From positions 3,100,001 through 3,164,000 of the forward strand of contig NZ_CP059733.1 of assembly GCF_000948985.2 (NCBI RefSeq): 64,000 bases of DNA, in the 5' to 3' direction. Below are positions 42,527-59,245 of the stretch, in pieces (positions within the stretch are counted from its first letter, which is position 1; every line of letters starts with the position of its first letter). The translations under genes and the position numbers were made by a program. Origin of the DNA: Thalassomonas viridans. Lineage in GTDB: Bacteria > Pseudomonadota > Gammaproteobacteria > Enterobacterales > Alteromonadaceae. The notes under the pieces are model-generated. The model was given only the letters and a program-made list of their open reading frames with translations. It had not been told where the DNA came from and did not search any database.

Positions 42527-42651
42527 TACTTGAATCGGCAGAGGTTTTGGCAGGCATTTGACAAACTTAACAAATCTTGAGTCCGGTTGGTAAATCTCTC
42601 CGGCCGGGCTTAAGCTTATTTAAGTTGCCGACATAGGATGCCTGTCTCAGT

Positions 42652-44451
42652 ATGACCTTGATTTATCAGTTTATTCGTAGCCTCTGTGCCTTATATCCTA
42701 AAAAAGTTGCCGCTAATCTATCACTACAGTTTGTCTTAGGCTTAACCCAGGGCATAGGCATTTTACATCTTTTGCCTTTGCTGTCCCTGGTATCCGGGCA
42801 ATCTCTACAGGTACTGGGGGCGGCTTCACTGAACGGCAGCGAGCAGGGGCTGCCTGACTTGCCCGCGCTGTTATCTTACCTGCCGCAGCTGACTTTAACC
42901 CAGCTGCTGGTAATTTTTGTGCTGATCTTGTGCTGCCATGGCCTGGTGAAACGGAAACAGTTTTGCCTGTCGGCAGCAATAGAAAATGCCTTTGTTTACC
43001 ATAGCCGAAAATCCCTCTATCAAGCTCTTTGTCGCACCAACTGGCCTTTGCTGTGTCGCCTCAGGAGCACAAATATCAACCATGTGCTTACGATAGAGGT
43101 GCAGCGGCTGGCGCATATGGTGAAGCTTTTTTTCGAACTGACTTCTGTTTGCCTGCTTAGCCTGTTTTATATCGCCCTGGGGTTATGGTTGCAGCCTCAG
43201 TTGTTGATGTTTTGCCTGGCCACCGGGCTGGTGCTGTTTTTATTGCTGAGAAAGTATAACCACCAGGCCAATGATTTAGGTTTGCAGTCACAGCAGCATA
43301 TCCGCTCGGTATTTGCCCTTGCCGGAAATTTTCTCGGGGGCGTGAAAACCATTAAGGCCCATGCCCTTGAACCGGTTTTACAAGATAAATTTTCACGGCA
43401 AATAAACAGCACCCGTGAGGTGGACGATCAATTTGCCCGAAGTCATAGCCTGGCGGCGTTCTATTATGAAATTGGCGCTTCAATTTTGCTTTGCCTGCTG
43501 CTCTATCTTGCCATCGGTGTGATGAATACCGGGCTTGCCGTGCTGATCACCTTATTATTTACCTTTTCACGCCTGATGCCAAAACTGGTGGCGGGGTTTA
43601 AACTGTACCAGCAGCTGTTAAACCATCTGCCTGCCTATCAGGCGGTGAAACAACTCAAGGAGCAGTTGAGCCGGGAGCGGGAGGCGCAAGGGGTAAAAAG
43701 CACAGAAGCCTCCCTGTCGTTTAACAAAGCACTGAGCTTTACCGATGTTTGTTTTGCTTATCCGGAGAAAGCGGTGATTCAGGGAGTATCCCTGAAGATA
43801 CAAGCGAAAGAGATCACGGCCCTGGTCGGCCCTTCGGGCAGCGGGAAAAGTACTTTGCTGGATCTTATGGTTGGCATTATTTCCCCGACCCAGGGTAATA
43901 TTTTTATCGACGGCAGGCCGCTTACTCCCGGAGTGAAAAAAAACTGGCAGGGAAAAATTGCCTATCTCACCCAGGAAGCCTTTTTATTTCACGATACTGT
44001 CCGGGCCAATATGCAGCTTATCAGCGGCCGGGTCAGTGATGAAAATATCTGGCAGGTTTTGGAACAAGTATCGGCGAAAACTTTTGTTGCCGCACTGCCT
44101 CAGGGACTGGATACCCGGATAGGGGACAGGGGCATGACGTTATCCGGCGGCGAGCGCCAGCGACTGGCGCTGGCACGGGCCTTACTGGCAAAACCTGAAC
44201 TCCTGATCCTCGATGAGGCAACCAATGCCCTGGATAAGGAACATGAGAGGACTATCGACAGGTTAATCGCCGAGTTAAAAGGACAAATAACAGTAGTGAT
44301 TGTTGTCCACGATCTTGTCAGGGTGCGCCAGGCGGACCATCTTTATGTTATTGAAGACGGACGGGTGAAAGAAAGAGGCAGCCGGGCGGAATTGCTTGTT
44401 GCCGGGCAAGGCTATTTAACCCGCCTGGCCGGCAGCAGCGAACTGGTTTAG
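42652..44451 (+). CDS. ABC exporter, fused membrane and ATPase domains (MsbA/peptide-exporter type)
   Basis: A 599-residue half-transporter with six spans in the first ~320 residues and an NBD from about 360. The NBD is complete: Walker A GPSGSGKST, Q-loop in AYLTQEAFLFHD, signature LSGGERQRLALARALL, Walker B LLILDEATNALD, and H-loop IVVHDL. There is no N-terminal C39 peptidase, so any peptide substrate would have to be cleaved elsewhere. It is convergent with the radical-SAM operon with only 18 bp between stop codons, which suggests that it belongs to the same island as its exporter or flippase. Confidence 0.88.
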   Translation: MTLIYQFIRSLCALYPKKVAANLSLQFVLGLTQGIGILHLLPLLSLVSGQSLQVLGAASLNGSEQGLPDLPALLSYLPQLTLTQLLVIFVLILCCHGLVKRKQFCLSAAIENAFVYHSRKSLYQALCRTNWPLLCRLRSTNINHVLTIEVQRLAHMVKLFFELTSVCLLSLFYIALGLWLQPQLLMFCLATGLVLFLLLRKYNHQANDLGLQSQQHIRSVFALAGNFLGGVKTIKAHALEPVLQDKFSRQINSTREVDDQFARSHSLAAFYYEIGASILLCLLLYLAIGVMNTGLAVLITLLFTFSRLMPKLVAGFKLYQQLLNHLPAYQAVKQLKEQLSREREAQGVKSTEASLSFNKALSFTDVCFAYPEKAVIQGVSLKIQAKEITALVGPSGSGKSTLLDLMVGIISPTQGNIFIDGRPLTPGVKKNWQGKIAYLTQEAFLFHDTVRANMQLISGRVSDENIWQVLEQVSAKTFVAALPQGLDTRIGDRGMTLSGGERQRLALARALLAKPELLILDEATNALDKEHERTIDRLIAELKGQITVVIVVHDLVRVRQADHLYVIEDGRVKERGSRAELLVAGQGYLTRLAGSSELV

Positions 44452-44469
44452 CAGGAAAAACATTAAAAA

Positions 44470-45147
44470 TTAAGCTGTTATCTGAAAGATGTAATTCTTT
44501 TCTATGATAAAGTTTTTGCTGGTCACCAGTTCCAGCCTTAGTTGCTGAAGCCGGGCAAGGGCATTTATCTTATCCAGCGCACAGCCATCGGACAACACCA
44601 TAAAGACCTGGCTCTGTTGTCCGGTATAGGTTTTGAGTTGGCTGAAAAGCCGGGTAAAGTAATCAAAGTTTTCGCCGCAATACCAGGCGGCCTGCGCCGG
44701 ATTTTCCGGGGTTTTGTTAAAATAGGGCGGATTGATGACGATCACGTCAAAACGTGAAGTGATACGGTCAAACAGATCCGATCGCAGCAGGGTCAGCGCC
44801 AGGTTATTTTTTCTGGCATTTTCACCGGCGTTGGCAATGGCCAGCGGGTTGATATCCGTGGCAACGACCCTGGCGCCGCAGCTGGCGGCAGATAACGCCA
44901 GCAGACCGCTGCCTGTCCCCAGATCCAAAAAAGTTTTGTTTTCGAGTGCTAAAGTCGAGATAAAGTCGGCGAGATATTTGGAGCTGAAAAACAGCCCGGG
45001 ATGAAAGACGCCGGGGTCAACCTTAAGTTGCAGGTGCCGGTAGGTCATCCGGCGCGGGGATTTGAGGTAGTAGTATTGCAAAAAGAGCTTGAGGGTTTTC
45101 CCCAGCAAAAATTTCAGGCTGCGGGTTTTCAGCTGTTGCCAGTTCAT
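44470..45147 (-). CDS. Class I SAM methyltransferase (small HemK-like type)
   Basis: A 225-residue protein. The ATG at 45147 overlaps the stop of the upstream radical SAM gene (ATGA), which decides the start over the longer frame to 45243. SAM site FLDLGTGSGLLALSAA, acidic residue in VVATDINPLAIANA, and catalytic loop VIVINPPYF, the N-P-P-Y motif of enzymes that methylate planar nitrogen atoms such as amide or ring nitrogens. Last gene of the nine-gene operon. The motif suggests methylation of a nitrogen in protein, peptide or base; the substrate is unknown. Confidence 0.82.
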   Translation of the reverse strand: MNWQQLKTRSLKFLLGKTLKLFLQYYYLKSPRRMTYRHLQLKVDPGVFHPGLFFSSKYLADFISTLALENKTFLDLGTGSGLLALSAASCGARVVATDINPLAIANAGENARKNNLALTLLRSDLFDRITSRFDVIVINPPYFNKTPENPAQAAWYCGENFDYFTRLFSQLKTYTGQQSQVFMVLSDGCALDKINALARLQQLRLELVTSKNFIIEKNYIFQITA

Positions 45148-46247
45148 TCGGCAAAACCACTGCAGCAGCGGGCGCAGGCAGGAAAAAGGCCCCCCGCCCG
45201 GCGAAGATCCCGGCGCAACCTGGCATAAGCGGCGCTGTTCCACAGGTTTTTTAAATTGTCCTGGTACAGGTTGCCTAAAGTAAGGTTAAAGCAGCGTCCA
45301 TGGGCGGGAATGGCGTTGCCGTCGGATTTAATCATGATATTGCTGAATACGTCTTTACATTGCCTGCCGATAAATTCGTGGGGAGCACGATAAAAGCGCG
45401 TTAATGCCGCTTCGTTTTCCAGCTCGGGGGAAACGGAGACATTAAAAGGGTATTGTCTGGATTTAAGCTGTTTCAGCTCTTGCCATAATAGGTCTAAATC
45501 CATAGCTTCTATTTCCGTTAATTCAATATTGGAATGGCTGGCAAAATAGCGGGGGCCGTATTCCAGGTTGTGCTCGAATGCGACGGATTTCGGGGTAAAG
45601 TTAGTGTGCATAAAACCTAAATGGCTTATCGGGTAGTGGCGGAAAAACTCCGCCAGGGCCGTTAACCGGCCAATATTCCAGCGGCTGATCACACAATATA
45701 CAGAGACTTTGGGCCTGGTATGAAAACTAAAGAGCTTTTCCAGGCCGGCCATGGCTTTTTCAAATGCCTGGCTGTGGCCGCGAATCTGGTTATGGATCTC
45801 CCGGGGGCCGTCGAGGGAGATAAAAAGTTCAGCCACCCGGTTTTCGCTGATGGCGTCAGCTTTTTTTTCTAAATTCAGGGCATTGGTGGTGATACAGGTA
45901 TAAAGCTTATGCTTGCAGGTCAGGGCGAGGGATTCTTCCAGGTGCTTGTAAATTAAAGGTTCGGTAAAGGCATAACCAAGCTTAGCATCGGGAAAGTAGC
46001 TGGCGGTTTGCAGCACGATTTTTTCAAACAGCGCTAAAGGCATATGCTTGGGCGTGCTGCCGATCAGGTTGGTGGCAAAAATGGTTTCATTGTTTTCTGT
46101 GCCGACATCGCACATTTTGCAATGCAGGTTGCACAGGTTGTTTACTCCAAGCACCAGCCATTGGGGCGGTGTGACCATATAACCGGGAAAGTAACGCCGG
46201 TTTAAGTGGCGGAGTTTTTTTGTCAGGGCTGCTTTAACCGGCGTCAA
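45144..46247 (-). CDS. Radical SAM protein with SPASM-type C-terminus
   Basis: A 367-residue enzyme. The start is a TTG, supported by a perfect GGAGG at 46254-46258 seven bases upstream. The [4Fe-4S]-SAM motif is CNLHCKMC near residue 38. A barrel follows, with FTEPLIYKHLEESL, LFISLDGPREIHNQIRG and VYCVISRWNIG. The C-terminus has further cysteines (GRQCKDVFSNIMIKSDGNA, GRCFNLTLGNL, FPACARCC), the arrangement of SPASM or twitch auxiliary clusters that occur in peptide- and sugar-modifying enzymes. It overlaps the upstream glycosyltransferase gene by 14 bp and the downstream methyltransferase by 4 bp. Confidence 0.88.
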   Translation of the reverse strand: MTPVKAALTKKLRHLNRRYFPGYMVTPPQWLVLGVNNLCNLHCKMCDVGTENNETIFATNLIGSTPKHMPLALFEKIVLQTASYFPDAKLGYAFTEPLIYKHLEESLALTCKHKLYTCITTNALNLEKKADAISENRVAELFISLDGPREIHNQIRGHSQAFEKAMAGLEKLFSFHTRPKVSVYCVISRWNIGRLTALAEFFRHYPISHLGFMHTNFTPKSVAFEHNLEYGPRYFASHSNIELTEIEAMDLDLLWQELKQLKSRQYPFNVSVSPELENEAALTRFYRAPHEFIGRQCKDVFSNIMIKSDGNAIPAHGRCFNLTLGNLYQDNLKNLWNSAAYARLRRDLRRAGGLFPACARCCSGFAE

Positions 46248-47412
46248 AATAAACCTCCATCGCCTTAGCGGCTATTTTATCCTGTGACCAGTGGCGCTGA
46301 AAAAATGCCATGCAGGCCGCCCGCTCTTGCGGCAGGTTTTTTGTCATCATCTTCACAAGGGCCTGCAATAAGGCCCGGTCATCACCGCAGGGCCAGAGGG
46401 CGCCGACGCTGCCGTTGCCGGTCAGGGTATTAAAGCTGGGGATATCCGTGACCACCGGAATTGCACCACAGGCCAGGGCATCGAGTACGGCTATGCCCGA
46501 ACCCTCGTGCTGGCTGCCCTGAACAAAAATATCGGCGGCGCTGTAATAGGCCGAGATATCCTGATAATCGATCTGGCCCAATAAGCTTACGCCTTGGGTA
46601 AGAGTGTCATCCGCGGCGATTTTTTCTTTTACTTCTGCCAGCAGCGGGTTATTGCGGAAAAGCATAGTTAACCGGCTTTGCGGGTAAAGCCGTTTGAAGG
46701 CGGCAAAGGCGGTCAGTATGGTTAAGGGATCTTTGTTTTTGTCCAGGTTGGCGGTCCACAGCAGCAGGGGGAAGCCCTGCAGTTGCAGCACTTTCCTGGC
46801 TGTGGCTTGCTCAAGGGGCCTGCAATTTGAGCTGCATTCCATCACTTCAAAAACCTGTTTGGCTTTCACTGCTTTGGTTTTTATCCAGTCGAGGGCCAAA
46901 GTTTTATTGCTAAACAAAAAAGCGTCCACGTATTTATTGACCCAGGGGCTGAAGATTTTCAGCCAGGTGCTATTTGGCTGTTCGGCATGGTGTTGGACCA
47001 CCCATTTGATATTTTGCCCGAGTATTTTTTGTAAATGTCGGCTGCACAGCGGGAATAATAAACTATGCAGGTGTACGCAAACGGCTGACGCCTCCTGGCG
47101 GGTATTGATAGCGGTAGCGGCTAATGTTTGCTTAATCCCCAGGTGGAAGCGGCGACAGATATGATAGGGGCGGGGTCTGGGGGGCAGGTCATCCTGAATA
47201 AAAAAGTACTTGATACCACCAGATTCAAGCTGGTGATCGCTGTGAAACCGCTGGAATAAGAACACTTTTGCCCCGAGCTTTTGGCAACTTGCCAGCCAGG
47301 AGCCGAGCATAAAATAGTGTTGCAGCAGTTGCTGCGGGCTTTCAAGCTCTGCCTGATAGCCATAGTTAACCATAATAAGCACTTGCTGATTGCTTTGCTC
47401 GGGCAAGGGCAT
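46234..47412 (-). CDS. Glycosyltransferase family 4
   Basis: A 392-residue GT-B glycosyltransferase. The C-terminal nucleotide-sugar domain is recognisable: LLLWTANLDKNKDPLTILTA, SLLGQIDYQDISAYYSAADI, then the donor-binding HEGSGIAVLDALACGAIPVV. The N-terminal half binds the acceptor and has no marker motif. No membrane span is predicted. It starts 3 bp after the stop of the upstream radical SAM gene. Donor and acceptor are unknown; within the island it probably adds a sugar to the product. Confidence 0.88.
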   Translation of the reverse strand: MPLPEQSNQQVLIMVNYGYQAELESPQQLLQHYFMLGSWLASCQKLGAKVFLFQRFHSDHQLESGGIKYFFIQDDLPPRPRPYHICRRFHLGIKQTLAATAINTRQEASAVCVHLHSLLFPLCSRHLQKILGQNIKWVVQHHAEQPNSTWLKIFSPWVNKYVDAFLFSNKTLALDWIKTKAVKAKQVFEVMECSSNCRPLEQATARKVLQLQGFPLLLWTANLDKNKDPLTILTAFAAFKRLYPQSRLTMLFRNNPLLAEVKEKIAADDTLTQGVSLLGQIDYQDISAYYSAADIFVQGSQHEGSGIAVLDALACGAIPVVTDIPSFNTLTGNGSVGALWPCGDDRALLQALVKMMTKNLPQERAACMAFFQRHWSQDKIAAKAMEVYFDAG

Positions 47413-47415
47413 AAC

Positions 47416-48927
47416 TTAAAACCCCGAAATTTCAGGCCGCTGGTAGGCGAGCTTTTTTTGCAGCCAGGCCAGTTCAACCGGAAAATGGTAAAAACGGGTC
47501 AGGTAACGGATACCGCTGATGGCCTTTAACAGCCAGTAGCGCCAGGATCCCGGGGGAATGGTGCGGGAGGTAGCTGACGGATAATAGGCATTTAAGACCG
47601 TTTGAAAATTGGCGATATAAGTCTGATCTTGTTCGGTAAGCCAGGGAACATCGGCGCTGGTACGCCGCTGTATCTGCCGCCATTTGGGGTTGGTCCATTC
47701 TTCGAGCGTAGTCGGGAAGGTAAAGCCCATGCCGGTAACGGTTTCATACATTTCCCCGCCGATAGGCACGGGATCGTAGCGGTACATTATGATTTCTGCC
47801 CTGGGGTTGATTTTCTTTATCCGGCGGATAAAAGCTATGCCCCGCTTAAGGTCCGCTAACGGATCCGGAGGGTTGCCCAGGATAAAGCTGAACTCGGGCA
47901 CTATCCGGTATTTCGCCATTTTGGCGGCAAGTTCCAGGATCACCCGGCTGCTTTGGCTGCCGCCTTTGTTCATGCGTTTTAAGGTTTCGTCATCGCCGCT
48001 TTCGGCGCCGAGAAACACCATTTTCAGCCCGGACGCCTGCATTAACGACCAGGTTTCATCCTTGTATTTTAACAGGGTATCCACCCGGCCTTCTCCCCAC
48101 CAGTTCAGCTTCAGCTTACGCGTCAGCAGGGCGCGGCAGAAATCCTGTACCCGTTTTTCTGAGGTAAAAAAGTTGTTGTCGTGAAACTCCAGGCCGTTGA
48201 TTTGCCAGTTGTCCACCATAAACTGGGCGAGCTCGCCGAGGCGTTCGCCTTTTTCCCCCATCCATTTGCCCTGGGATAGAGCCACTACGGCGCAAAAGTT
48301 ACAGAAAAACGGACAGCCGAAACTGGAATGGTGGCTTAAGGTGCGGCTGCCGAGATGGGTGTTGACTATATACCGGCTGACATCCAGCTTATGGTAGGGA
48401 TAGCGGGGCAATTTATTGGGATGCGTGGGAGCCCTGGGCGGCGTTTTTACCAGCTGGTTATCCTGCATATAGGCGATGCCGTTAACGGCTGCCAGGTTGG
48501 CCTTTAATTCTAACGTGGTGATCAGCTCTTTGAAGGTTTGTTCACCCGGGCCGATCACTATGTAGTCGATATCGGGATCTTCGGCGCACACCTTGGGATG
48601 GTTTAACGGGAAATAGCCGCCGACGATGACGATAAGATCTTTACATACCCGTTTGATCTTACGCAGATCCGCCAATGTCGAGACCAGTTGCGGGCCGGGC
48701 ATGATACTGATGGCCAAGTATTTGACCCGATACTGATGAACCTTGTCTATGATCACCTGGCCATAATCTGTTTCCTGCGCCAGGTTGCCGTCTACTATTT
48801 CATAGGGAAACAGATCTTCTATCAGGGAAGCCACCTGTAATATTGCGGCGGGCAGGCGCTGGTAGCCGGGTTTGGCACATTGGGGATTGTAAAAAAGTAT
48901 CAAGGGGGCCTGCCGAGTTTTGTTCAT
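47416..48927 (-). CDS. B12-binding-domain radical SAM protein
   Basis: A 503-residue enzyme of the cobalamin-binding radical SAM class. The N-terminal Rossmann-like domain (about 1-150) has LILFYNPQCAKPGYQRLPAA and VIVGGYFPLNHPKVC; the radical SAM cluster motif CPFFCNFC lies near residue 205. The barrel carries GAESGDDETLKRMNKGG and EFSFILGNPPDPL. The B12 domain lacks the D-x-H-x-x-G ligand, as is usual in this class. These enzymes methylate unreactive carbons or phosphorus or rearrange rings. It lies 15 bp after the methyltransferase gene. Confidence 0.87.
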   Translation of the reverse strand: MNKTRQAPLILFYNPQCAKPGYQRLPAAILQVASLIEDLFPYEIVDGNLAQETDYGQVIIDKVHQYRVKYLAISIMPGPQLVSTLADLRKIKRVCKDLIVIVGGYFPLNHPKVCAEDPDIDYIVIGPGEQTFKELITTLELKANLAAVNGIAYMQDNQLVKTPPRAPTHPNKLPRYPYHKLDVSRYIVNTHLGSRTLSHHSSFGCPFFCNFCAVVALSQGKWMGEKGERLGELAQFMVDNWQINGLEFHDNNFFTSEKRVQDFCRALLTRKLKLNWWGEGRVDTLLKYKDETWSLMQASGLKMVFLGAESGDDETLKRMNKGGSQSSRVILELAAKMAKYRIVPEFSFILGNPPDPLADLKRGIAFIRRIKKINPRAEIIMYRYDPVPIGGEMYETVTGMGFTFPTTLEEWTNPKWRQIQRRTSADVPWLTEQDQTYIANFQTVLNAYYPSATSRTIPPGSWRYWLLKAISGIRYLTRFYHFPVELAWLQKKLAYQRPEISGF

Positions 48928-48942
48928 GGTTTCCTGCCTTGT

Positions 48943-49743
48943 CTACTCATATTTTTGAAAGACTAAAAGATAATGATCCGCCAGTTGCCATAGCCCGGGG
49001 CACTGTTTGCTTTTATCCTCCAGATAAGCCAGTCCCCGGTATAGTTTAGGGCTGGATTCAAGGCGGTTATTTAAATAAGGCGGCGGCATAAATAGCCCCA
49101 GGGCCTGGCTTTCAACCAGATTGAACCAGGGCGACATGGCTTTTTTGATTTGCCTGACACTGGGGTAATAAATGGTCATATCCCGCCAGCGGCAAGAGCC
49201 CCCAAGGCGGCGGAAGGCCTTGTTAAATTGCCCCTTAAGGGAAAAATAAATCATTTCCCACAATACCCAGGGACCCATAACCACCATAATATAATAGCCG
49301 TTAGGGAGGAGTAATTTGCTTGTATCTTCGGCCATGGCGTGCCAGTTTTTGACACAGTTTAAACCGCCGAAGTTGGACAATATTCCACAAAATTGCCGGC
49401 CGCTTAGTTCCGGCAAGGCTTCTATCGCCATTTCCCGGGTTGTTATTTGTTGCCGGTTATTTGCGCCGGTTTTATGCCGGATAATATCGAGCATGGCGGC
49501 AGATTTATCGGTTGCCAGTACCTGATGGCCGAGACCGGCCAGAAACAGGGCGTCTTCCCCGGTACCGGCATTTAATTCCAGCAGCTGGCCGGGAGCCGGC
49601 CAATAGCGGGACATGACTTGTTGTACCCGCTGACGGTAATAGCGCCCGAGCGCGGTATGGCTAAAGCCGTCATCGTAGCTTTTGGCCAGGACATTAAAGG
49701 CATTGCCTGCGCCAATGTCAGTGTTAATCAAGGTGTCTTTCAT
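48943..49743 (-). CDS. Class I SAM methyltransferase
   Basis: A 266-residue methyltransferase with SAM motif LELNAGTGEDALFLAGLGHQ, acidic loop VLATDKSAAMLDI, and post-motif 'FCGILSNFGGLNCVKNWHAM'. The C-terminal half contains a region rich in Tyr/Phe/Trp (YIMVVMGPWVLWEMIYF) often seen in enzymes acting on lipid or quinone-like acceptors. It is sandwiched between two B12 radical SAM genes and overlaps the upstream one by 20 bp. Substrate unknown. Confidence 0.85.
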   Translation of the reverse strand: MKDTLINTDIGAGNAFNVLAKSYDDGFSHTALGRYYRQRVQQVMSRYWPAPGQLLELNAGTGEDALFLAGLGHQVLATDKSAAMLDIIRHKTGANNRQQITTREMAIEALPELSGRQFCGILSNFGGLNCVKNWHAMAEDTSKLLLPNGYYIMVVMGPWVLWEMIYFSLKGQFNKAFRRLGGSCRWRDMTIYYPSVRQIKKAMSPWFNLVESQALGLFMPPPYLNNRLESSPKLYRGLAYLEDKSKQCPGLWQLADHYLLVFQKYE

Positions 49744-51151
49744 GCTGTGATGCCACTAAAAGTTGTCTGGCCAGGCGGGCATGGCGGGCCTTGCGGTTTG
49801 CCATCTCGACGGCGCCGCTGGCTTTAAGGCGGGTGGCGGCGACATGGGCGTTAAGGTATTTGTTGGCAAAGCGGTAATAGCGTGCGCTGCGCCTGTGACT
49901 GAGGATAAGGTCGCGGTCGCTGCCTTTATCCCAGTCAACCGTGATTTGGATGTTCCCCTGGTTGGCCTTGAAAAACTCCGTGCCTTTAATGGGATAGGCC
50001 ACTGTGGTCAGGAAGATATCCGGATTTATCTGGGCTACCTGCTTCACGGTTTCATCGATATCTTCAATCTGCTCGTCGCCATAACCCCACATTAAAAACA
50101 TGCCTACCTGTATGCCCCTTTGCTGGGCGGCCTGGGTGGCCTGCTTGATTTGTTCTATGGTTACCCGGCGCTGCATATCGTCGAGCAGGCGCTGGCTGCC
50201 GCTTTCGGCGCCTATCCAGATACGGTAGCAGCCCATGTGCTGCAAGGTATCCAGAACTTTGGTTTTTGTCATGCGGTCCGCCCGGGAGATGGTTTCAAAC
50301 GGCACCTTTAACCGGCGTCTGTCCAATTCCCGGGCATATTGATATAGCCATTTGTAGTGTATGGTAAAGACATCGTCGGCATACCAGACCTGGCTCGGCC
50401 GGTAGTTTTCCATGATATCGGCCAGTTCATCGGCGCAGTCTGACGGCGATCTGCGCCTGTGGCTGTAGCCGAATACGGCATGGGAGCACCAGGTACATTT
50501 AAAGGGGCATCCCCTGGCGGTGATCATGCTGACACAGGACTCGCCGTGGTGTTCGTGCCAGGCATCCAGGTATTGTTGGATATTAACGGCTTTTCTGTCG
50601 GGCCAGGGGTATAAATCCAGATCTTTGGGCAGCTCCCTCGGCGGGTTGGAGATCACGCAGTTGAGTTTATTGAGATAACTGATCCCCTTTATTTTTGCAG
50701 GATCGCCATGTTCCAGCAGACATTTGAGCAACAGGTGCAGGGTCTGTTCGCCTTCGCCGCTGACGATATAATCTGCCCCGTACCTGAGGTATTCCTGCAC
50801 ATAGTTCGCCGATTCCGGTCCGCCGAGGATCACCGTCATTTCCCGGGTTTTGGCATAAGCTATGATATCCAGTACCGACGGCCGGGTCATCAGATTGGTA
50901 TAGATGCCGATAATGCCGCCGCGGCTGTGGTATATCTGCCGGTAGAGCTGGGGACGGGTGGCAAAGGTGCTGTCAAACAGGTTGACGGTAAAACTTTGCT
51001 GCTTCAGGTATGCGGACAGGTACATTAAGCCCAGCGGCGGGTGAGGGCGCATTACCGCCTGTTCTTTTTCGTCTTCACACAGGAAAAAACCGTGGGTGAG
51101 CAGGATATCGGCTTTTGCCATCATTTTTTCCGGTTGTTTTTTATCCTGCAC
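49724..51151 (-). CDS. B12-binding-domain radical SAM protein (paralogue 1)
   Basis: A 475-residue enzyme beginning with a GTG behind AGGA. The B12-type domain starts ILLTHGFFLCEDEKEQ and 'PHPPLGLMYLSAYLKQQSF', with VILGGPESANYV. The radical SAM motif CPFKCTWC lies near residue 215 in MITARGCPFKC, followed by VWYADDVFTIHYKW and WIGAESGSQRLLDDM. It aligns along its full length with the next upstream gene product, so the pair arose by tandem duplication. Overlaps its neighbours by 11 and 20 bp. Confidence 0.87.
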   Translation of the reverse strand: MQDKKQPEKMMAKADILLTHGFFLCEDEKEQAVMRPHPPLGLMYLSAYLKQQSFTVNLFDSTFATRPQLYRQIYHSRGGIIGIYTNLMTRPSVLDIIAYAKTREMTVILGGPESANYVQEYLRYGADYIVSGEGEQTLHLLLKCLLEHGDPAKIKGISYLNKLNCVISNPPRELPKDLDLYPWPDRKAVNIQQYLDAWHEHHGESCVSMITARGCPFKCTWCSHAVFGYSHRRRSPSDCADELADIMENYRPSQVWYADDVFTIHYKWLYQYARELDRRRLKVPFETISRADRMTKTKVLDTLQHMGCYRIWIGAESGSQRLLDDMQRRVTIEQIKQATQAAQQRGIQVGMFLMWGYGDEQIEDIDETVKQVAQINPDIFLTTVAYPIKGTEFFKANQGNIQITVDWDKGSDRDLILSHRRSARYYRFANKYLNAHVAATRLKASGAVEMANRKARHARLARQLLVASQHERHLD

Positions 51152-52604
51152 AGTGTCTTTCCTTTATGCTTACCGGGATGGCCTGTTTATGCTGTTCAGC
51201 GCTATTCATGAGTTGCTGCCAGCGGTTTTGCCATAAGGCACGGGTATCGGCATGGGGGGCGTTACGTAAAGCCTTGAGTTCCCGGTGCAGGTGATTGCGG
51301 ATGCGGCGATAAAAATCGCTGGAATAGTTGGCATTAAAAACCACTTCCAGATCTTTACTTTCCTGCCAGTGGTCTTTGGCGAATAAACCGGTGCGGATCT
51401 TGTCATAAAAGCCCGTTCCCGGCAGCGGGTAGCTGACGCTGACGCCAATTTCGTCGGGCAATAGGCCCGTGATCAACTCCCGGGTGGCATTAAGATCTGC
51501 TATTTCTTCTCCCAGGTAACCCAGCTGGATGAAAAAGCCGGTTTTTATACCGACCTGTTTTAATAACCGGCGCGCCTGTTTCACTTCCGACAGCTTGAGA
51601 TCTTTGTCCATGGCATCGAGTATTTTCTGGCTACCGCTTTCTACCCCCAGCCAGACTTCGGTGCAGCCGGAATCTGACAGGGCTTGTACCATGCTTTCAT
51701 TGATAAGATCCGCCCGGGACTGGATCATATAGGGAATGCGGATATTTTCCTGGTTGAGCAAGTGGGCATATTCTTCAATCCAGCCATTGCGCAGGCCGAA
51801 GATATCGTCGGCGAACCAGATATGTTCAGGACGGGCGATATCCACCAGCTGGATAAGCTGCTGAACTATATATGCCGGACTGTGGCTGACATATTGCTGT
51901 CCCCATACAGGTTTGGCGCACCAGTTGCAGCGGTAGGGGCAGCCGCGGGTGGTTACCATGTTTATCCCCAGATAGCCGTGGTGTGCCTGCCATATTTCCC
52001 GGTAAGCAGCAAAATCTACCAGATCCCAGGCCGGTGGCGGTAACTTATCCAGAGCCCGGAGGTTTCTTTCCTTAACGTGCTTTTGTGCCCGGGAAGTTCC
52101 TGAGCCCTGGCTGATAACCCTGGAAGGTAAACAGGCATCGGCTTGTGCCGGGTTTTGTAAGTAGCTGAATAACTGCATTAAGCTGCTTTCAATTTCTCCC
52201 CTGATCACATAATCTGCGCCGAAGTCGAGATAGATGTGGGGCACGTCTGAAGAATCGGCGCTGTTAATGAGTACCGGGAGATTTAACTCCCTTGCAAAAT
52301 TGATCATTTCCCTGCTGGTTTCACGCACATGTGATAAACACATTTTGCTTAGGAAATGAAAACTGTCTTCGACGATCAGCAGCATATCCGGTTTAAACGC
52401 CGTTATTTTATCTTCAAACGGTGCGAGATCCTGTGCCAGCATTGCATCAAACAAGGCCACCTGATAACCGGCATTGCGTAATAAACCGGCGGCATACAGG
52501 GTAGCCAGGGGGGGATAGGGCTTGACTTTATCCTGCAGCTGTTTGCTGTCGTTTTTTAAGAAAAAAGCATGGGCGAGTAAGATCTTGTTAAATGGCTTGG
52601 TCAT
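51141..52604 (-). CDS. B12-binding-domain radical SAM protein (paralogue 2)
   Basis: A 487-residue enzyme from the ATG at 52604, which has GGAA just upstream; the frame extends to 52664 but would run into the preceding gene. N-terminal domain ILLAHAFFLKNDSKQ and YPPLATLYAAGLLRNAGY, then the [4Fe-4S] motif CPYRCNWC in MVTTRGCPYRC, IWFADDIFGLRNGW and VWLGVESGSQKILDAMDKD. The shared blocks with the neighbouring product (HAFFL/HGFFL, FADD, ESGSQ, SYPLPGT/AYPIKGT) show common descent. The duplication suggests two related methylations or iterative chemistry on one product. Confidence 0.87.
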   Translation of the reverse strand: MTKPFNKILLAHAFFLKNDSKQLQDKVKPYPPLATLYAAGLLRNAGYQVALFDAMLAQDLAPFEDKITAFKPDMLLIVEDSFHFLSKMCLSHVRETSREMINFARELNLPVLINSADSSDVPHIYLDFGADYVIRGEIESSLMQLFSYLQNPAQADACLPSRVISQGSGTSRAQKHVKERNLRALDKLPPPAWDLVDFAAYREIWQAHHGYLGINMVTTRGCPYRCNWCAKPVWGQQYVSHSPAYIVQQLIQLVDIARPEHIWFADDIFGLRNGWIEEYAHLLNQENIRIPYMIQSRADLINESMVQALSDSGCTEVWLGVESGSQKILDAMDKDLKLSEVKQARRLLKQVGIKTGFFIQLGYLGEEIADLNATRELITGLLPDEIGVSVSYPLPGTGFYDKIRTGLFAKDHWQESKDLEVVFNANYSSDFYRRIRNHLHRELKALRNAPHADTRALWQNRWQQLMNSAEQHKQAIPVSIKERHCAG

Positions 52605-52612
52605 AGGCTTCC

Positions 52613-53932
52613 CTAGTTCCAGTCTCTGCCTGGCCGGAGATCCTGCAAGGCAAATATTTGCCATTGGGGTCTGGTGGTTTTTGTGATGAATTTTTTTAGC
52701 GCCCGGATAAAACGTTTGGAAAAAGGAGCCAGTGCCGTGGCCTGTCCGTCGGCTAGCAGGGTGGTTTCTTTATCGGCTTTTAAAGATAATGTCAGCCACT
52801 GGCTCAGATGGCGGATATTATGGGTCCAGAACAAGGAGCGCCAAACCGGCATCAGGTAAGGGTTGCAACAGGAAAGCTCGCACAGGGACAGGCGGTTGAA
52901 CAACAAACGCAGATGTAGGGGCGTCTGCGCTGCTAACCTTTGTTCTAGCGCCTGAACATTGTGGCCAAATAACTTCCTGGTCAATATCAGCGGCAGCAAT
53001 AACTGGGGGGAAAGTCTTTCCTTATCCGTGATGGCAAAAACCTTGTCCCAGCTTATTGTTGTGTGCTTAAGCAAAAGATAAATGTCATAAAGTTGGATCC
53101 AGCGGCCACTGTGGCTGCGTAAATGTTTGGTGGCATGCAATAATTGAAAAACCAAAGCTTCTTCCGGGCTTAATGCACCTGAGTGCAAACAGGCTTTGCG
53201 AAATACCTTGTCCAGGTTAAACCGGGTTTCCCTGGTGCCCTGGTGCATGGAAAAATGAATATCTAAGCTAAAAGGCAAACGGCTGCTTTCGCCCATCATC
53301 AGCAAAGTTTTATTTTGGGTTTCTATTTGCGCGCCGTGCCAATTTATTTCCCGGGCGAGATCGGCTTCCTCATTCTGCCAGTGCTGCGGATAACAGGTGA
53401 TGCCACATTGATTGGCAGCATGGATCTTATAGCCCAGCTGCTCTATTAGCCGGCAAACCTCTGCTCTTTGCTCCGGGAGGACATAGAGATCTATATCTGC
53501 CATAGGCCTGCTGCCGTTATCCGGGTAGAGGTGACAGGCCAGTTCAATCCCCTTAAAAGGCATTATTTGTATTTCCCGCTGCCTAAATGCCTTCAGAATC
53601 CGCTTTTTTTCTTTGTCCATCAGAGCAAGCCGGATGCTGTTTTCCTGATATTGCTGCATCAGGAATCGGTAGAGTGATTGGGGGAATAATTTTTTGTCCT
53701 GTTGTTGTGAAAGCAAATATCCCCATAACGGCCCCATACCATGAATGATAATAACGGCCCGGGCAATATCCCATTCCCGCTCGTTCCAGAAGTTAGCGGC
53801 TTCCGGAGCACAGGCATGGCCCCGAGTACACCAGTTGGCCAGCCATTGAAAAAGTGTGTCTGCAACATCTTTAATGCCCGGAATATTCCGCGGCATAGTT
53901 GATATATATCCGGGGAAGGAGGTTAACGGCAT
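52613..53932 (-). CDS. Nucleotidyltransferase-fold protein (NTP_transf_5 type)
   Basis: A 439-residue protein with the nucleotidyltransferase signature GSRPMADIDLYVLPEQ (metal-binding D-I-D) near residue 138, preceded by MPFKGIELACHLYPD, and a helical C-terminal half with VFQLLHATKHLRSHSGRWIQLYDI. This is the pattern of the uncharacterised nucleotidyltransferases that accompany HPr-kinase-like proteins and ABC exporters in peptide-modification clusters, and the HPr-kinase-like gene is immediately upstream (10-bp overlap). Transfer of a nucleotide to the peptide or to a partner protein is the usual suggestion; no activity is proven here. Confidence 0.8.
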   Translation of the reverse strand: MPLTSFPGYISTMPRNIPGIKDVADTLFQWLANWCTRGHACAPEAANFWNEREWDIARAVIIIHGMGPLWGYLLSQQQDKKLFPQSLYRFLMQQYQENSIRLALMDKEKKRILKAFRQREIQIMPFKGIELACHLYPDNGSRPMADIDLYVLPEQRAEVCRLIEQLGYKIHAANQCGITCYPQHWQNEEADLAREINWHGAQIETQNKTLLMMGESSRLPFSLDIHFSMHQGTRETRFNLDKVFRKACLHSGALSPEEALVFQLLHATKHLRSHSGRWIQLYDIYLLLKHTTISWDKVFAITDKERLSPQLLLPLILTRKLFGHNVQALEQRLAAQTPLHLRLLFNRLSLCELSCCNPYLMPVWRSLFWTHNIRHLSQWLTLSLKADKETTLLADGQATALAPFSKRFIRALKKFITKTTRPQWQIFALQDLRPGRDWN

Positions 53933-54876
53933 AGGCTTGTTAAAGTCTTAAAAGCCAGATCGGGTCGATTGCCGGATTCAAGCACATAGCAGGAGTGCTG
54001 CTTAAGTGCCTCAAGGTGTTTTGCTCTGGTTTTACAGGCTAGTGAAAAGCCGGGTTCTGTTGGTTTTATTAACATCTTATATAGTTTTTTATCGTTATTA
54101 ATTCGTAAGTTAGACTGTTGTTGTTTATGGCAAGCTTCGATAAAAACTATAGTAAACTTCTCTGAGGATGCAATTTTTCTGTCGGCAGAAACCGGCACTA
54201 TATATTTTTGTTTACCGTTATGGCTGCTTGCTAATTTGGCTGAGCTTAACCAGGGAAAATGCCTGCTGGCGTCTCTTAATAAGTGTATTTCCCGGCAGTC
54301 TCCGCGGGCGATGAGCTTTTCCCGATGTATCTCCAGAAATACTATGTCTTCGGCAAGTATATCGCCTCCTTGCTGGTATGCTTGCATTGCCAGGGTGGAC
54401 TTACCTGCACCGCTTGCTCCCAGGCATAACAAGGTGGTTTCCCGGATACGAAAAGCGCAGCAATGTATAGGGGTTAGCTTTTGATAGCTCAGCAGGAAAT
54501 AAACAAGTGAATTTATCACCTGATGCCTGAGCAAATAGGGAGATGCCAGCATCTGATCACAGAGCCAGGCCCGGCCCTGCATTTGACTGCGCTCGGCAAT
54601 AAAGCGGTTATGGCCGGAAGCGCCCAGTAGAGTGTCGGCTTCAAGCTTGAATCTTGGCGGCATTTCAAGAGCGGTGAAGGGGGGAGCAATGTGATATAGG
54701 GTCAGAACCGGCAGCTGGCCGGGCTCTTTGCCGGTTAATGCTTGCTGCTCCCTGTCGCCCGGGTAGAGGTGAAGAATAGTCTCCATCAACATCTTGCTTG
54801 ATGCTTTTACCCGGATCTTGTTGCCAAGAATATCGATAACAGCTGTTAATTCATTGCCGGGAGTTAAATGGGGCAT
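53923..54876 (-). CDS. HPr-kinase-like protein (first gene of the radical-SAM operon)
   Basis: A 317-residue protein from the ATG at 54876 (a TTG at 54885 is too close to the AAGG). Its P-loop LCLGASGAGKSTLAMQAYQQ and the following GGDILAEDIVFLEI reproduce the HPr kinase catalytic core: Walker A and the acidic loop ahead of the substrate serine site. It lacks the N-terminal domain and C-terminal helices of true HprK, and no phosphotransferase HPr gene is near. Such HprK-related kinases are known from peptide biosynthetic cassettes with NTP_transf_5 proteins, usually together with a PqqD-like protein that I do not find here. Confidence 0.78.
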   Translation of the reverse strand: MPHLTPGNELTAVIDILGNKIRVKASSKMLMETILHLYPGDREQQALTGKEPGQLPVLTLYHIAPPFTALEMPPRFKLEADTLLGASGHNRFIAERSQMQGRAWLCDQMLASPYLLRHQVINSLVYFLLSYQKLTPIHCCAFRIRETTLLCLGASGAGKSTLAMQAYQQGGDILAEDIVFLEIHREKLIARGDCREIHLLRDASRHFPWLSSAKLASSHNGKQKYIVPVSADRKIASSEKFTIVFIEACHKQQQSNLRINNDKKLYKMLIKPTEPGFSLACKTRAKHLEALKQHSCYVLESGNRPDLAFKTLTSLCR

Positions 54877-55038
54877 AAAAGACAACCTTTTTATTAGCCT
54901 TTAACAAACTTGTTGTCTGTTAGCGGAGTTTTAGTCTTAACTTAATAAGGGCGGCGAAAGAAAAATGTTGAAGGTAGACAGGCCCTTATAATCAAAATAG
55001 AACAAAATGAAATAAAGACAAAAAATGAAAGGATTGCT
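54877..55038. promoter_or_regulatory. Divergent promoter region of the island
   Basis: About 160 bp, AT-rich, between the nine-gene minus operon and the plus-strand methyltransferase-glycosyltransferase pair. The short frames inside it are no longer than nine codons, so it does not hide a precursor peptide. No recognisable operator. Confidence 0.45.
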
Positions 55039-55806
55039 ATGACCCCTCTTCCCGTGCGAAAGAAAGACGTTAGCCGCATTAACGGTGTTTTATTATTAAC
55101 CCCAAAAAAATCTGCGCCATTTGAGGATTTATACCTTAAGGTCAGGGCCAGGGAGCAATGGCTGGTCAGTGATGAGGCGCTGAAGCTGTTGCCGGAAACG
55201 TCGCCGCAGCATGCTCATGCCCGGGAATGGCAAATAAGAGCAGACTCTACAGCCAAACTGGCGTCGTACCTGAAGCGCATGGCGTTATCTTCATCCGACT
55301 GGTTGCTCGATATCGGCTGTGGTAATGGCTGGCAGTCGCATCTGCTGGCCCGACATACCCAGGCCAATGTGTTAGCCATAGATATCAACCTGCAGGAGCT
55401 GGAGCAGGGGGCCAGGGTCTTCAGCCGTGACAACCTGACTTTTGCGTATCTGGACTTATTTTCCGGCTGCTTGCAGCCGCAGACCTTTAAATTTGTGCTG
55501 GCGGGGAGCTGTTTACAATATTTTCCCGATGCCATTTCCCTGATTGATTTGGGACTGGATCTGCTCATGCCGGGCGGTGAATTTCATATTATTGACTCCC
55601 CTTTTTATCAGCCAGCAGGGGTCATGGCTGCTAAGCAAAGAAGCCTGGATTATTACCGGCAGCTCGGTTTCGGGCAAATGAGTGAATATTATCACCATCA
55701 TAATATTGCGATCTTTGATGAATACAACAGCGAGTTCCTTTATAAAAAACCGCCGGAGGCAGGCAAAGGGACGAATCCCTTTCCCTGGATTAAGTTGGTT
55801 CCGTGA
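55039..55806 (+). CDS. Class I SAM methyltransferase
   Basis: A 255-residue methyltransferase beginning MTPLPVRKKDVSRI behind AAAGGA. SAM motif WLLDIGCGNGWQSHLLARH, acidic end of strand 2 in VLAIDINLQELEQG, and DLFSGCLQPQTFKFVLAGSC in place of the common catalytic motif. The distal GGEFHIIDSPFYQPAGVMAAK matches small-molecule or lipid methyltransferases. Its TGA overlaps the GTG start of the glycosyltransferase gene (GTGA), so the two are coupled. Confidence 0.83.
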   Translation: MTPLPVRKKDVSRINGVLLLTPKKSAPFEDLYLKVRAREQWLVSDEALKLLPETSPQHAHAREWQIRADSTAKLASYLKRMALSSSDWLLDIGCGNGWQSHLLARHTQANVLAIDINLQELEQGARVFSRDNLTFAYLDLFSGCLQPQTFKFVLAGSCLQYFPDAISLIDLGLDLLMPGGEFHIIDSPFYQPAGVMAAKQRSLDYYRQLGFGQMSEYYHHHNIAIFDEYNSEFLYKKPPEAGKGTNPFPWIKLVP

Positions 55807-56948
55807 ATATTCTTTTGCTGTTTCCGGGAGGGGTATCGCCCGGTGGAGAAGAAAAGGTTATTCCCGCCTTGCTGACCCTGATGAAAGGCTTGAGCCGCTC
55901 ACATAACATCGTGGTATTGCTGCAACGCCAGGACAGGCATTTAACTGAGTTTACCCTGCACGGCTGTCAGGTGATTTCTTTACCCTGTAGCTGTACTTTG
56001 GGCTCCTGGGTTTTATATTTGAAGCAAATCAGATTAGCTGTAAAGCGCCTTAAGTTTCATGGTTTTACACCCGAGGTTGTTCATAGTTTTTGGCTGGGAG
56101 GGCCGTCAATACTGGCGGGGTTGCTGAGGCTGATATATAGGGTGCCTTCAGTTGCTACCTTAGCCGGCGGGGAGGCGGTCAGTTTATCTGATATCGGCTA
56201 TGGCGGTAGTTTGCGTTGGCGAAACCGGTTGCTTAATCGTCTCGGTCTTGCTTTAGCCGTCGATCTTACCTGCGGTAGCCGTTATGTCAAAGACATTGCC
56301 GAACACAGATGGCGCAAGCCTTTTAGTCTGATCCCTTTGCCCCTGGATAATGCCTTGTGGACCCAGAGCAGAGCCAGTGAAAATCTGCCGGCGCCAGAAA
56401 GAAAATGGCAATTTGTGCATGTGGCATCCATTAATCGGATTAAAAATCCCAGGTTGTTGCTGGGTCTGGTAGCGGAATTAATAAGGCGGAACTGTGATTT
56501 TCACTTGCATTGGGTTGGTGAAGATACGCTAGACGGGGAAATACACAGCAACGCCGAAAAGTTGGGAGTAAGCGGTTATATTAGTTTTTATGGTTTTCAA
56601 ACCCAGGTGCAGTTGAAGCAACTGATGCAAGATAAAGATCTGATCATCCAGACGTCAATTTTTGAATCCCAGGGGATTGCCATGGCAGAGGGAGCCAGCC
56701 AAGGACTTTGTCCGGTGGGAACAAATGTTGGCTGGTTGCATGATTTGGATTTAGGCATCAATACCGCTGCCGTTATGCCTGAAGATGCGGCCCGCCAGCT
56801 GGCGGATGAAGTCTTATTGTTGTGCCGGCAACCCCAGTTACGTCTTGAGCGCATAAAAAAAGCACAAAGCTGGCTAAAAGCATATCAGGCAAACATTGTC
56901 GTTGATAAGTTTCAGGAAAAATACCGGCAATTAACCTCCAGAACCTGA
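55803..56948 (+). CDS. Glycosyltransferase family 4
   Basis: A 381-residue GT-B glycosyltransferase with a GTG start overlapping the upstream stop. The N-terminal NILLLFPGGVSPGGEEKVIP loop and HSFWLGGPSILAGLL belong to the acceptor domain; 'VHVASINRIKNPRLLLGLVA', YISFYGFQTQVQLKQLMQDK and SIFESQGIAMAEGASQGLCP belong to the donor domain with its E-x7-E. The second glycosyltransferase of the island, on the opposite strand from the first. Sugar and acceptor unknown. Confidence 0.87.
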   Translation: MNILLLFPGGVSPGGEEKVIPALLTLMKGLSRSHNIVVLLQRQDRHLTEFTLHGCQVISLPCSCTLGSWVLYLKQIRLAVKRLKFHGFTPEVVHSFWLGGPSILAGLLRLIYRVPSVATLAGGEAVSLSDIGYGGSLRWRNRLLNRLGLALAVDLTCGSRYVKDIAEHRWRKPFSLIPLPLDNALWTQSRASENLPAPERKWQFVHVASINRIKNPRLLLGLVAELIRRNCDFHLHWVGEDTLDGEIHSNAEKLGVSGYISFYGFQTQVQLKQLMQDKDLIIQTSIFESQGIAMAEGASQGLCPVGTNVGWLHDLDLGINTAAVMPEDAARQLADEVLLLCRQPQLRLERIKKAQSWLKAYQANIVVDKFQEKYRQLTSRT

Positions 56949-57072
56949 TTGCTTTACCTGTCCGGTCGCTGCATCAAGCGGTTTTTTGGTGCTTGAACAG
57001 GCTAAGTATCTGTTTTAGTATAAATTCCGTAAGTAATTTAATTTTAAAAGAATAATAAGGAAAGGAGACCGA

Positions 57073-57951
57073 ATGAAGTTCCCGTTAATGTTTATTACCT
57101 GCCTGGCTCACTTTTTTCTCCTTATCCTGTTATCAACAACTGCCTTTGCCAAAGCCAGCGGAACATACCCTGCCAGCATTGTTGAACTCACTATTCCTTC
57201 TTATGGAAAACGTATGTCAGGCCTGGCTTATTTGGCCAAAGGGGCAGGGCCGCATCCGACCATAGTGCTGTTGCACGGTTATCCCGGCAACGAGAAAAAC
57301 CTGGATGTGGCCCAGGCTATGCGTAGCCGGGGCTGGACTGTGATTTTTTTCCATTACCGGGGGGCTTGGGGCAGCGAGGGGGAATTTTCCTTTCGCGGCG
57401 CTGAGCGGGATGTCCAGCAGGTTTTAGCCTATCTGCGGGATGGGAAAAATGCCGCCGATTTACGTATCAACCGGAATAACATTTCTCTTGTCGGTCACAG
57501 CATGGGTGGGCATATGGCCATTGCCGGTATCCTGGATAACCCTGGGGTAAAGTGCTCAGTGGCTTATGATGGCGCCAATCTTGGGGCTGGTGGCCTTGGC
57601 TTTTTTAAAGAACAGCAAAGTGCTGAGCTGTGGCGAAGTTACAGCGATACTTTGTTTATGCTCTCCGGCTGGTCTGGCGCCAAAGCGGAGGGGGAAATCA
57701 GGCAATATGGCCAGAAACTGGATCTGGTTAAACGCGCCGCCAACATTAACGGACGACCGGTTTTGCTGATTGCCGCGAATACCGAGGTGATCCCTATCGA
57801 CCAGCATATTATGCCGCTAAAGGCTGCGCTGCAGGCGAGCCCGAACAGCCGGGTATCTTACCGCCTGATTGAGGACGACCACAGTTTTTCTTCATCCCGT
57901 GCCGAGCTGATTGACGCGACCGCAAGCTTTTTAAATAACCAGTGCCGTTAG
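57073..57951 (+). CDS. Secreted alpha/beta hydrolase (prolyl-oligopeptidase or dienelactone-hydrolase-like)
   Basis: A 292-residue exported enzyme with a signal peptide ending at AFAKA. Alpha/beta-hydrolase elements are complete: oxyanion region VLLHGYPGNEKN, nucleophile elbow LVGHSMGGHM (Ser), and a terminal histidine in IEDDHSFSSSR with an acidic residue before it. Substrate is not predictable; esters or small peptides are likely. A GGAAAGGAGA ribosome site precedes the ATG. The next hydrolase gene starts 50 bp later and probably belongs to the same transcript. Confidence 0.85.
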   Translation: MKFPLMFITCLAHFFLLILLSTTAFAKASGTYPASIVELTIPSYGKRMSGLAYLAKGAGPHPTIVLLHGYPGNEKNLDVAQAMRSRGWTVIFFHYRGAWGSEGEFSFRGAERDVQQVLAYLRDGKNAADLRINRNNISLVGHSMGGHMAIAGILDNPGVKCSVAYDGANLGAGGLGFFKEQQSAELWRSYSDTLFMLSGWSGAKAEGEIRQYGQKLDLVKRAANINGRPVLLIAANTEVIPIDQHIMPLKAALQASPNSRVSYRLIEDDHSFSSSRAELIDATASFLNNQCR

Positions 57952-58913: not shown

Positions 58914-59030
58914 ACAATCAACTTCTGCGTTGCGCTCAATCCCAATAGCTGGCTATTGCTCAATCACGCGCCTTAAACTTGACTGTTTATCCTCATTGAA
59001 TCTTGATCAATTCTTTATTACGTTTGGTAT
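58872..59030. mobile_element. MITE-like 159-bp inverted-repeat element
   Basis: Both ends carry ATACCAAACG (right end inverted). The arms match, with a few mismatches and small gaps, for about 55 bp each: blocks AATAA, GAAT, GATCA, TTCAATG, TAAACA and TCAA occur in the same order in both. The centre holds CAATAGC-TG-GCTATTG (58943-58958). There is no coding capacity, so it would have to be moved by a transposase elsewhere. It overlaps the end of the MEST-like hydrolase gene. Target duplication is not clear. Confidence 0.75.
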
Positions 59031-59245
59031 TACCTGTGCGTTGGCAAGCGGGGAAGTTGGCTGTAAGGCAGGATAAATACCGGCTGAGAGGAAAAACTTA
59101 TAACTTTTATCTCCTTACCTTCTTGGTGGCAAAGGTCAGGCGTAACTTTTTCCGTTACCAGCCTGTAAGAGCAAGCCGCTCAGTATGGGAGGTTATTGTT
59201 AAATGTCCGGGGTTAATTGCCGGGCATAAGGGGGTTTATAAAAAA
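58914..59245. other. Intergenic region, MITE remainder plus about 215 bp of unexplained sequence
   Basis: From the hydrolase stop to the end of the TIR gene. After the MITE the sequence has an 83-codon plus-strand frame starting in the element (59003-59254) that overlaps the TIR gene tail; it looks like chance and is not called. Confidence 0.5.

Follow-up and report, generated by a model that had tools for sequence, protein, structure and literature searches.

What product is made by a set of genes in which four radical S-adenosylmethionine (SAM) enzymes, three of them of the B12 type, are combined with an HprK-like kinase, a nucleotidyltransferase-fold protein, methyltransferases, glycosyltransferases and an exporter? 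Such an island is found in Thalassomonas viridans, within a stretch of 64,000 nucleotides (hereafter the window) that corresponds to positions 3,100,001-3,164,000 of the larger contig (6.73 Mb; two contigs, genome 7.95 Mb, denoted G000). A preliminary description of the window had placed the island at 44470-56948 and regarded a peptide and a glycan product as equally possible. From the analysis reported here the product is tentatively read as a non-peptide, phosphate-bearing, radically tailored and methylated glycoconjugate, made by a pathway that is mobile or has repeatedly been lost; this reading is given a little less than an even chance.

Gene content and the empty site in congeners

The island consists of twelve genes, namely a run of nine on the minus strand, which opens near 54876 with the HprK-like gene and closes with the methyltransferase MT_end (stop 44470), a divergent plus-strand pair (MTdiv and GT4b) and a convergent ATP-binding cassette (ABC) exporter, the gene of which ends 18 bp from the nearest minus-strand gene, MT_end. 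The starts of MT_end (45147), B12a (52604) and HprK (54876) were inferred by comparison with the locus of Aliikangiella coralliicola (L015). Given starts picked in this way, the nine minus-strand genes overlap or are spaced by at most 15 bp, in agreement with the earlier observation of overlaps or gaps below 20 bp. The features, with domain scores, are as follows.

42526-57146, no strand: stretch without DNA counterpart in three congeners, between two flanking genes (DNA comparison)
42652-44451, plus strand: ABC exporter, a fusion of ABC_membrane and ABC_tran (Pfam), within the stretch missing from the congeners
44470-45147, minus strand: MT_end, NPPY-type (HemK/PrmA-like) methyltransferase (Pfam MTS 58.4 bits; open reading frame (ORF) opens at 45243, start inferred; 48% identical to L015 6545-7222)
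45144-46247, minus strand: SPASM radical SAM enzyme (Radical_SAM 52.8 and SPASM 32.9 bits, both above cut-off; L015 relative 59% identical)
46234-47412, minus strand: GT4a, glycosyltransferase of the family-4 type (Glycos_transf_1 70.6 bits; relatives in L015, L019, L041)
47416-48927, minus strand: B12c, B12-binding radical SAM enzyme, BchE-like (B12-binding 40.4, Radical_SAM 33.4 bits; L015 relative 69% identical)
48943-49743, minus strand: MTmid, class I methyltransferase of the conserved core (Methyltransf_25 36.8 bits; recurs near B12a/B12b)
49724-51151, minus strand: B12b, B12-binding radical SAM enzyme (Radical_SAM 67.3, B12-binding 50.7 bits)
51141-52604, minus strand: B12a, AprD4-like radical SAM enzyme with a divergent B12-type domain (Radical_SAM 61.7, B12-binding 24.2 bits; ORF opens at 52664)
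52613-53932, minus strand: NTP5, NTP_transf_5 nucleotidyltransferase-fold protein (NTP_transf_5 130.9 bits)
53923-54876, minus strand: HprK-like kinase (Hpr_kinase_C 22.5 bits, below cut-off; Foldseek; ORF opens at 54885)
54886-55038, no strand: 153 bp between the divergent genes, presumed promoter region (without a short frame common to other loci)
55039-55806, plus strand: MTdiv, class I methyltransferase (Methyltransf_25 39.8 bits; L015 relative 46% identical)
55803-56948, plus strand: GT4b, family-4 glycosyltransferase (Glycos_transf_1 62.4 bits; relatives in L015, L016, L019, L041)

Each of the four radical SAM proteins exceeds the Pfam cut-off for Radical_SAM. For the ten island proteins scanned with NCBIfam, every listed family stays below its curated cut-off (the ABC exporter and GT4b were scanned with Pfam only). 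The gene positions and domains of the preliminary description were reproduced, and its names agree with Pfam and NCBIfam.

With a DNA query of 19.9 kb, no counterpart of the island was detected in any of the three congeners (G001, G002 and G003). Homology of the left flank ends at window position 42525, at the stop codon of gene 41423-42526, and that of the right flank resumes at 57147, 74 bases into gene 57073-57951; the flanks are 209, 218 and 246 bp apart in G001, G002 and G003, respectively. Since the missing stretch takes in the ABC exporter, the extent of 44470-56948 proposed before is too narrow. The HprK-like protein has no match in the three congeners, and within a sample of 98 genomes only itself and two weak partial matches were found. 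The island may represent a gain here or a loss in the three congeners.

The conserved core and its partner enzymes

The paralogous B12a and B12b, a methyltransferase and B12c form a core that recurs in Gammaproteobacteria, Acidobacteriota and Planctomycetota. A contig scan with six peptide patterns of B12a, by which relatives will be missed, gave 28 pattern matches, 13 of which encode a relative; the record titles name Aliikangiella, Gammaproteobacteria, Rhodospirillaceae, Azospirillaceae, Planctomycetota, Acidobacteria, KSB1 and Chloroflexi, among others. In A. coralliicola (strain M105) homologues of all twelve genes are found within 15.1 kb, with identities of 32-69%. The breadth of the family rests on genome scans, in which the B12a profile was matched in 2 of 398 sampled genomes from the phylum (G301 and that of the window), in 1 of 369 of the class Gammaproteobacteria (the window's own) and in 29 of 347 sampled Acidobacteriota genomes (sample around G486, G486 counted).

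Of 41 other loci, near relatives counted, 33 have a B12b gene no more than 4 kb from B12a and on its strand (among 42 other loci L076, with no clean B12a call, is left out, and L025 and L099 are one place), and the clustering therefore exceeds chance. In relatives the gene calls are mechanical ORFs named by their best phmmer match. A frequent order in Acidobacteriota is one or two extra B12 radical SAM genes, B12a, B12b, MTmid, another methyltransferase, B12c, a TRZ/ATZ-type amidohydrolase and a non-B12 radical SAM gene, part of which is missing from some loci. Homologues of the ABC exporter adjoin the core in L015, L016 and L018 and are found at 115-155 bits in L084 and L086-L089. Homologues are thus mostly clustered, though some genomes have B12b or NTP5 at another place or gave no match to it; together with the lack of an NCBIfam match at cut-off, this bears out the earlier proposal of a coherent biosynthetic and export island of a probably undescribed type.

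The CX3CX2C motif is kept in all sequences of the three B12-type enzymes (42/42 B12a, 34/34 B12b and 26/26 B12c, window counted), and the B12-binding domain scores above the Pfam cut-off in B12b and B12c. The solved structures nearest to the B12a profile are AprD4 (PDB code 6fd2, E 2.2e-28; entry title on apramycin biosynthesis) and 9ccb, followed by OxsB. The substrate of AprD4 is an aminoglycoside sugar. The NCBIfam AprD4 match spans positions 40-450 of the 456 of B12a, with 84.8 bits at a cut-off of 500. As a separate observation, a Lys-Met-Cys motif is present in the cobalamin-type domain of 41 of 42 B12a sequences.

The kinase scores below cut-off with both Hpr_kinase_C (22.5 versus 33.3 bits) and TIGR00679 (17.8 versus 240 bits). 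Its AlphaFold2 model (mean pLDDT 85.2) is matched by Foldseek to PEPCK (E 4.3e-8) and HprK (E 4.5e-6), and His138, Gly156, Gly158, Lys159 and Ser160 are invariant in 14/14 HprK-like sequences; the island kinase is accordingly modelled with a PEPCK/HprK-type fold containing a P-loop. NTP5 clearly exceeds the cut-off of NTP_transf_5 (PF14907, 31.2 bits), and its Lys127, Gly128, Arg142, Asp146 and Asp148 (KG, R and DxD) are invariant in 12/12 sequences. The NTP5 model (pLDDT 73.5) weakly resembles LnuA and ANT(2'')-Ia.

Of 43 stretches searched with iterated profiles, 18 contain the HprK-like gene and 15 contain NTP5; an unrelated NTP_transf_2-like DxD nucleotidyltransferase occurs in seven, none of which has HprK or NTP5. 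In this replacement protein the DxD is invariant in 7/7 sequences. Distant homology between it and NTP5 was looked for and not found, the two aligning over the DxD stretch only and without significance. On the B12a tree the rows labelled for HprK and/or NTP5 (23/31) and those labelled for the alternative nucleotidyltransferase (7/11) are split by a single 99/98 branch. The partner label changes once, compared with a mean of 6.5 upon shuffling, and 0/500 shuffles were as low; the labels were set by hand, 12 unlabelled rows were not counted, near-copies help the clustering, and the labels for L084, L086, L087, L088 and L093 rest on genes farther out. In 29 genomes, containing 0-3 copies each, PF14907 is found within 18 kb of B12a in 17, exclusively elsewhere in 10 and not at all in 2, proximity counts being inflated by near relatives.

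One may ask whether HprK and NTP5 belong to polysaccharide loci and owe their place beside the radical SAM cluster to chance or to joint mobility, each set giving its own product. In G728 and G768 an NTP5 gene does lie within 2 kb of Poly_export, far from the radical SAM cluster. In the window, however, the HprK and NTP5 genes overlap and NTP5 is 8 bp from B12a (inferred start), in L015 all three overlap, and the partner type follows the B12a tree. Separate products are hence considered quite improbable.

Further genes accompany the island in relatives. In some of them it is flanked by an outer-membrane-barrel-like protein, judged by eye, and by small monohaem cytochromes (L015 18406-20320, L019 7443-9484, L120 11800-13196, L122 6765-9042 and L026 18378-20801), to which Acidobacteriota add a cupredoxin. 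The gammaproteobacterial and acidobacterial versions do not match each other, nor was a match found in the window. In one Acidobacteriota lineage (L084, L086-L088, L120 and L121) GT87, RibA and DUF2306 genes are located between the radical SAM cluster and HprK/NTP5, joined in L120, where scanned, by a PhyH-type gene. This RibA is a GTP cyclohydrolase II above cut-off, the only listed NCBIfam family to reach its cut-off among the relatives' proteins scanned, and a weakly flavin-reductase-like gene (20.0 of 27 bits) lies in the same interval.

The nature of the product

A ribosomally synthesised and post-translationally modified peptide (RiPP), with its precursor encoded elsewhere in the genome, would have a precedent. 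Lasso peptides are modified by HPr-kinase-like proteins together with nucleotidyltransferase-like ones: for pseudomycoidin, PsmK phosphorylates, and PsmN is needed for placing a hexose on the phosphate (PMC8498205, PMC9266682). Peptides are also substrates of SPASM and B12 radical SAM enzymes in several systems, those families scoring below cut-off here. Furthermore, three NTP5 copies outside the island (one in G475, two in G736) are found 2-5 kb from PqqD.

Against a RiPP stands, first, the search for precursors. Among 565 intergenic frames of 18-110 amino acids from 24 stretches (20 places), divergent loci share only a monohaem cytochrome and its antisense frame (BLASTP, E 1e-3); frames mostly inside longer ORFs were dropped and near-identical pairs not compared, and remote, very short or fast-changing precursors could escape this test. 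Second, no match to PqqD (PF05402, the recognition-element type searched for) was obtained in G000 or G301, and in 11 genomes none lies within 40 kb of B12a, as far as the contigs reach; it occurs somewhere in 7 of these 11, nearest to the cluster in G642 (about 42 kb from B12a). Third, no leader protease or cyclase domain was detected by Pfam in the twelve island proteins. Within the limits of the short-frame test, the absence of a precursor frame from the gaps, as described before, was confirmed. Unlike the three copies mentioned above, the island copies of NTP5 in G475 and G736 have no PqqD at 2-5 kb, which suggests that the island NTP5 is a PqqD-free subtype. A RiPP pathway is therefore disfavoured and appears improbable.

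On the glycan side, GT4-like genes accompany B12a in L015, L016, L019, L041 and L098, with a sulfotransferase in L016. Of 20 Acidobacteriota tested, 10 encode Poly_export (Wza-type) no farther than 20 kb from B12a, and stretches from L120, L123 and L026 contain SLBB/Poly_export, Wzz, Polysacc_synt_3 (Wzx-type), Wzy_C, WecG and GT2 domains. The lean towards a non-peptide product of glycan type is thus due to the lack of a shared precursor-like frame, the absence of PqqD from G000, the GT4 and export genes and the likeness of B12a to AprD4. The preliminary interpretation is partly supported, its equal weighting of peptide and glycan being shifted towards the glycan.

A non-glycan small molecule or a lipid is the most serious competitor. 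Here the core would act on such a compound, and glycosylation and export would be lineage-specific additions in marine Gammaproteobacteria. Most Acidobacteriota loci indeed consist of the core, often with the TRZ/ATZ-type amidohydrolase and the non-B12 radical SAM gene, and have no GT4a/GT4b-like gene above 90 bits in the fetched stretch; B12a and B12d are moreover similar to TIGR04072, a ladderane-associated lipid family, with about 105 bits at a cut-off of 360. On the other hand, both B12a clades often keep a nearby DxD nucleotidyltransferase, one of them often with the kinase, and polysaccharide export genes are located near half of the tested Acidobacteriota clusters. This alternative is a real though lesser possibility.

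A hopanoid pathway was rejected for the gammaproteobacterial carriers because squalene-hopene cyclase is absent from 4/4 of them. Since 10 of the 12 tested carriers from Acidobacteriota have the cyclase above cut-off, hopanoids are excluded for the window but not for every carrier. With no listed NCBIfam family at cut-off either, the enzymes do not all match a known pathway.

Several observations, the scarcity of GT4 genes in Acidobacteriota among them, weigh against the glycoconjugate. Poly_export lies within 20 kb of B12a in 0/3 Gammaproteobacteria, the nearest in the window's genome being about 540 kb away, and the ten Acidobacteriota cases amount to about five lineages on the B12a tree. 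The B12-binding score of B12a stays below its cut-off (32.1 bits). The query-normalised TM-score of the kinase model is only about 0.45-0.5 to PEPCK and 0.23-0.30 to HprK, and the best fold match of the NTP5 model has an E-value of 0.014, none reaching 0.001. G577, G685 and G690, of the other B12a clade, hold NTP5 elsewhere in the genome. In the clade with HprK and NTP5, neither gene was detected close to B12a for 8 of 31 rows, some of these being on short contigs. The B12b-like match falls on a separate contig in G480 and G482, and none was obtained at E 1e-60 in G479 and G487. Finally, the sole characterised kinase/nucleotidyltransferase pair found works on a peptide; PsmN is a nucleotidyltransferase-like protein that may belong to PF14907, and its role as glycosyltransferase or nucleotidyltransferase is unsettled (PMC8498205, PMC9266682). 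The absence of Wza near the island in the window, the few GT4 genes in Acidobacteriota and the peptide precedent are the reasons why the glycoconjugate is put slightly below an even chance, a lipid or small molecule being nearly as likely.

For the glycoconjugate, the substrate class, the order of steps and the chemistry of each radical enzyme are proposed here from what is observed, i.e. the gene content, the absence from three congeners, the motifs and folds and the co-occurrence with the core across phyla. An acceptor that contains a sugar or polyol would be reshaped by B12a, B12b and B12c, either by radical C-methylation or, for the AprD4-like B12a, by dehydration or rearrangement. The SPASM enzyme would modify it further, and the three ordinary methyltransferases may cap oxygen or nitrogen positions. 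The HprK-like kinase would phosphorylate a hydroxyl group, onto the phosphate of which NTP5 might place a nucleotidyl group or a hexose in the manner proposed for PsmK/PsmN in pseudomycoidin. Sugars would be attached by the two GT4 enzymes, and the product flipped or exported by the ABC protein. It is conceivable, if rather doubtful, that the kinase and the nucleotidyltransferase-fold enzyme build a phosphate-bridged sugar conjugate, with three to five radical SAM enzymes of the B12 type recasting its carbon skeleton, among them B12a with the nearly invariant Lys-Met-Cys motif of its cobalamin-type domain, as an undescribed class spanning several phyla.

Neighbouring genes, known systems and significance

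To the left of the unit an RPE65-type (carotenoid-cleavage-like) protein and an ALO/FAD oxidase are encoded at window positions 39188-41035 and 37526-39139. To the right, a stretch of about 165 bp within 58868-59042 is repeated many times in all three congeners and represents an interspersed repeat family, and the start of the ORF at 59246-60145 resembles, by eye, a TIR-type domain (IFISHASSEQILAD). About 52 kb to the left of the island (G000 3080008-3090831; L009 5008-15831) a separate cluster encodes four radical SAM proteins, all with Radical_SAM above cut-off, besides a HlyD-like protein, a peptidase-containing-ABC-like protein and an S41-like protease (named by eye from translations). It was set aside as part of the same system because it lies outside the unit missing from the congeners and its radical SAM proteins are SPASM-like, with no B12 domain seen by eye.

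The enzyme superfamilies and the pairing of kinase and nucleotidyltransferase are already known. Pseudomycoidin and paeninodin share with the island the joint encoding of an HPr-kinase-like and a nucleotidyltransferase-like protein (PsmK/PsmN); they additionally have a precursor of lasso type, B proteins and a cyclase, whereas none of these was found in the island, which is dominated by radical SAM enzymes (PMC8498205, PMC9266682). AprD4, from aminoglycoside biosynthesis, provides the best solved-structure match of B12a, which nevertheless scores far below the AprD4 cut-off, and no aminoglycoside genes were recognised in the island. BchE, PhpK, HpnJ, HpnR and TIGR04072 have the same B12-binding and radical SAM architecture with CX3CX2C, but the island matches are far under the curated cut-offs, and the gammaproteobacterial carriers lack squalene-hopene cyclase. 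In the Wzx/Wzy exopolysaccharide loci of Acidobacteriota HprK and NTP5 are found near Wza-, Wzz-, Wzx- and Wzy-like and WecG genes, in contrast to the island of the window, which has neither polymerase nor Wza and a single ABC protein as exporter. No description of the gene combination, its spread or the partner switch was found in the open-access literature, most subscription papers being outside this scope.

The island defines an orphan family of gene clusters, fairly common among the sampled Acidobacteriota and rare in Gammaproteobacteria. The empty site in three sister species, together with the carrier A. coralliicola M105, allows a direct comparison of metabolites with and without the island. 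It also offers an apparently non-peptide setting for deciding what NTP_transf_5-type proteins transfer, a question left open for PsmN in two reviews (PMC8498205, PMC9266682).

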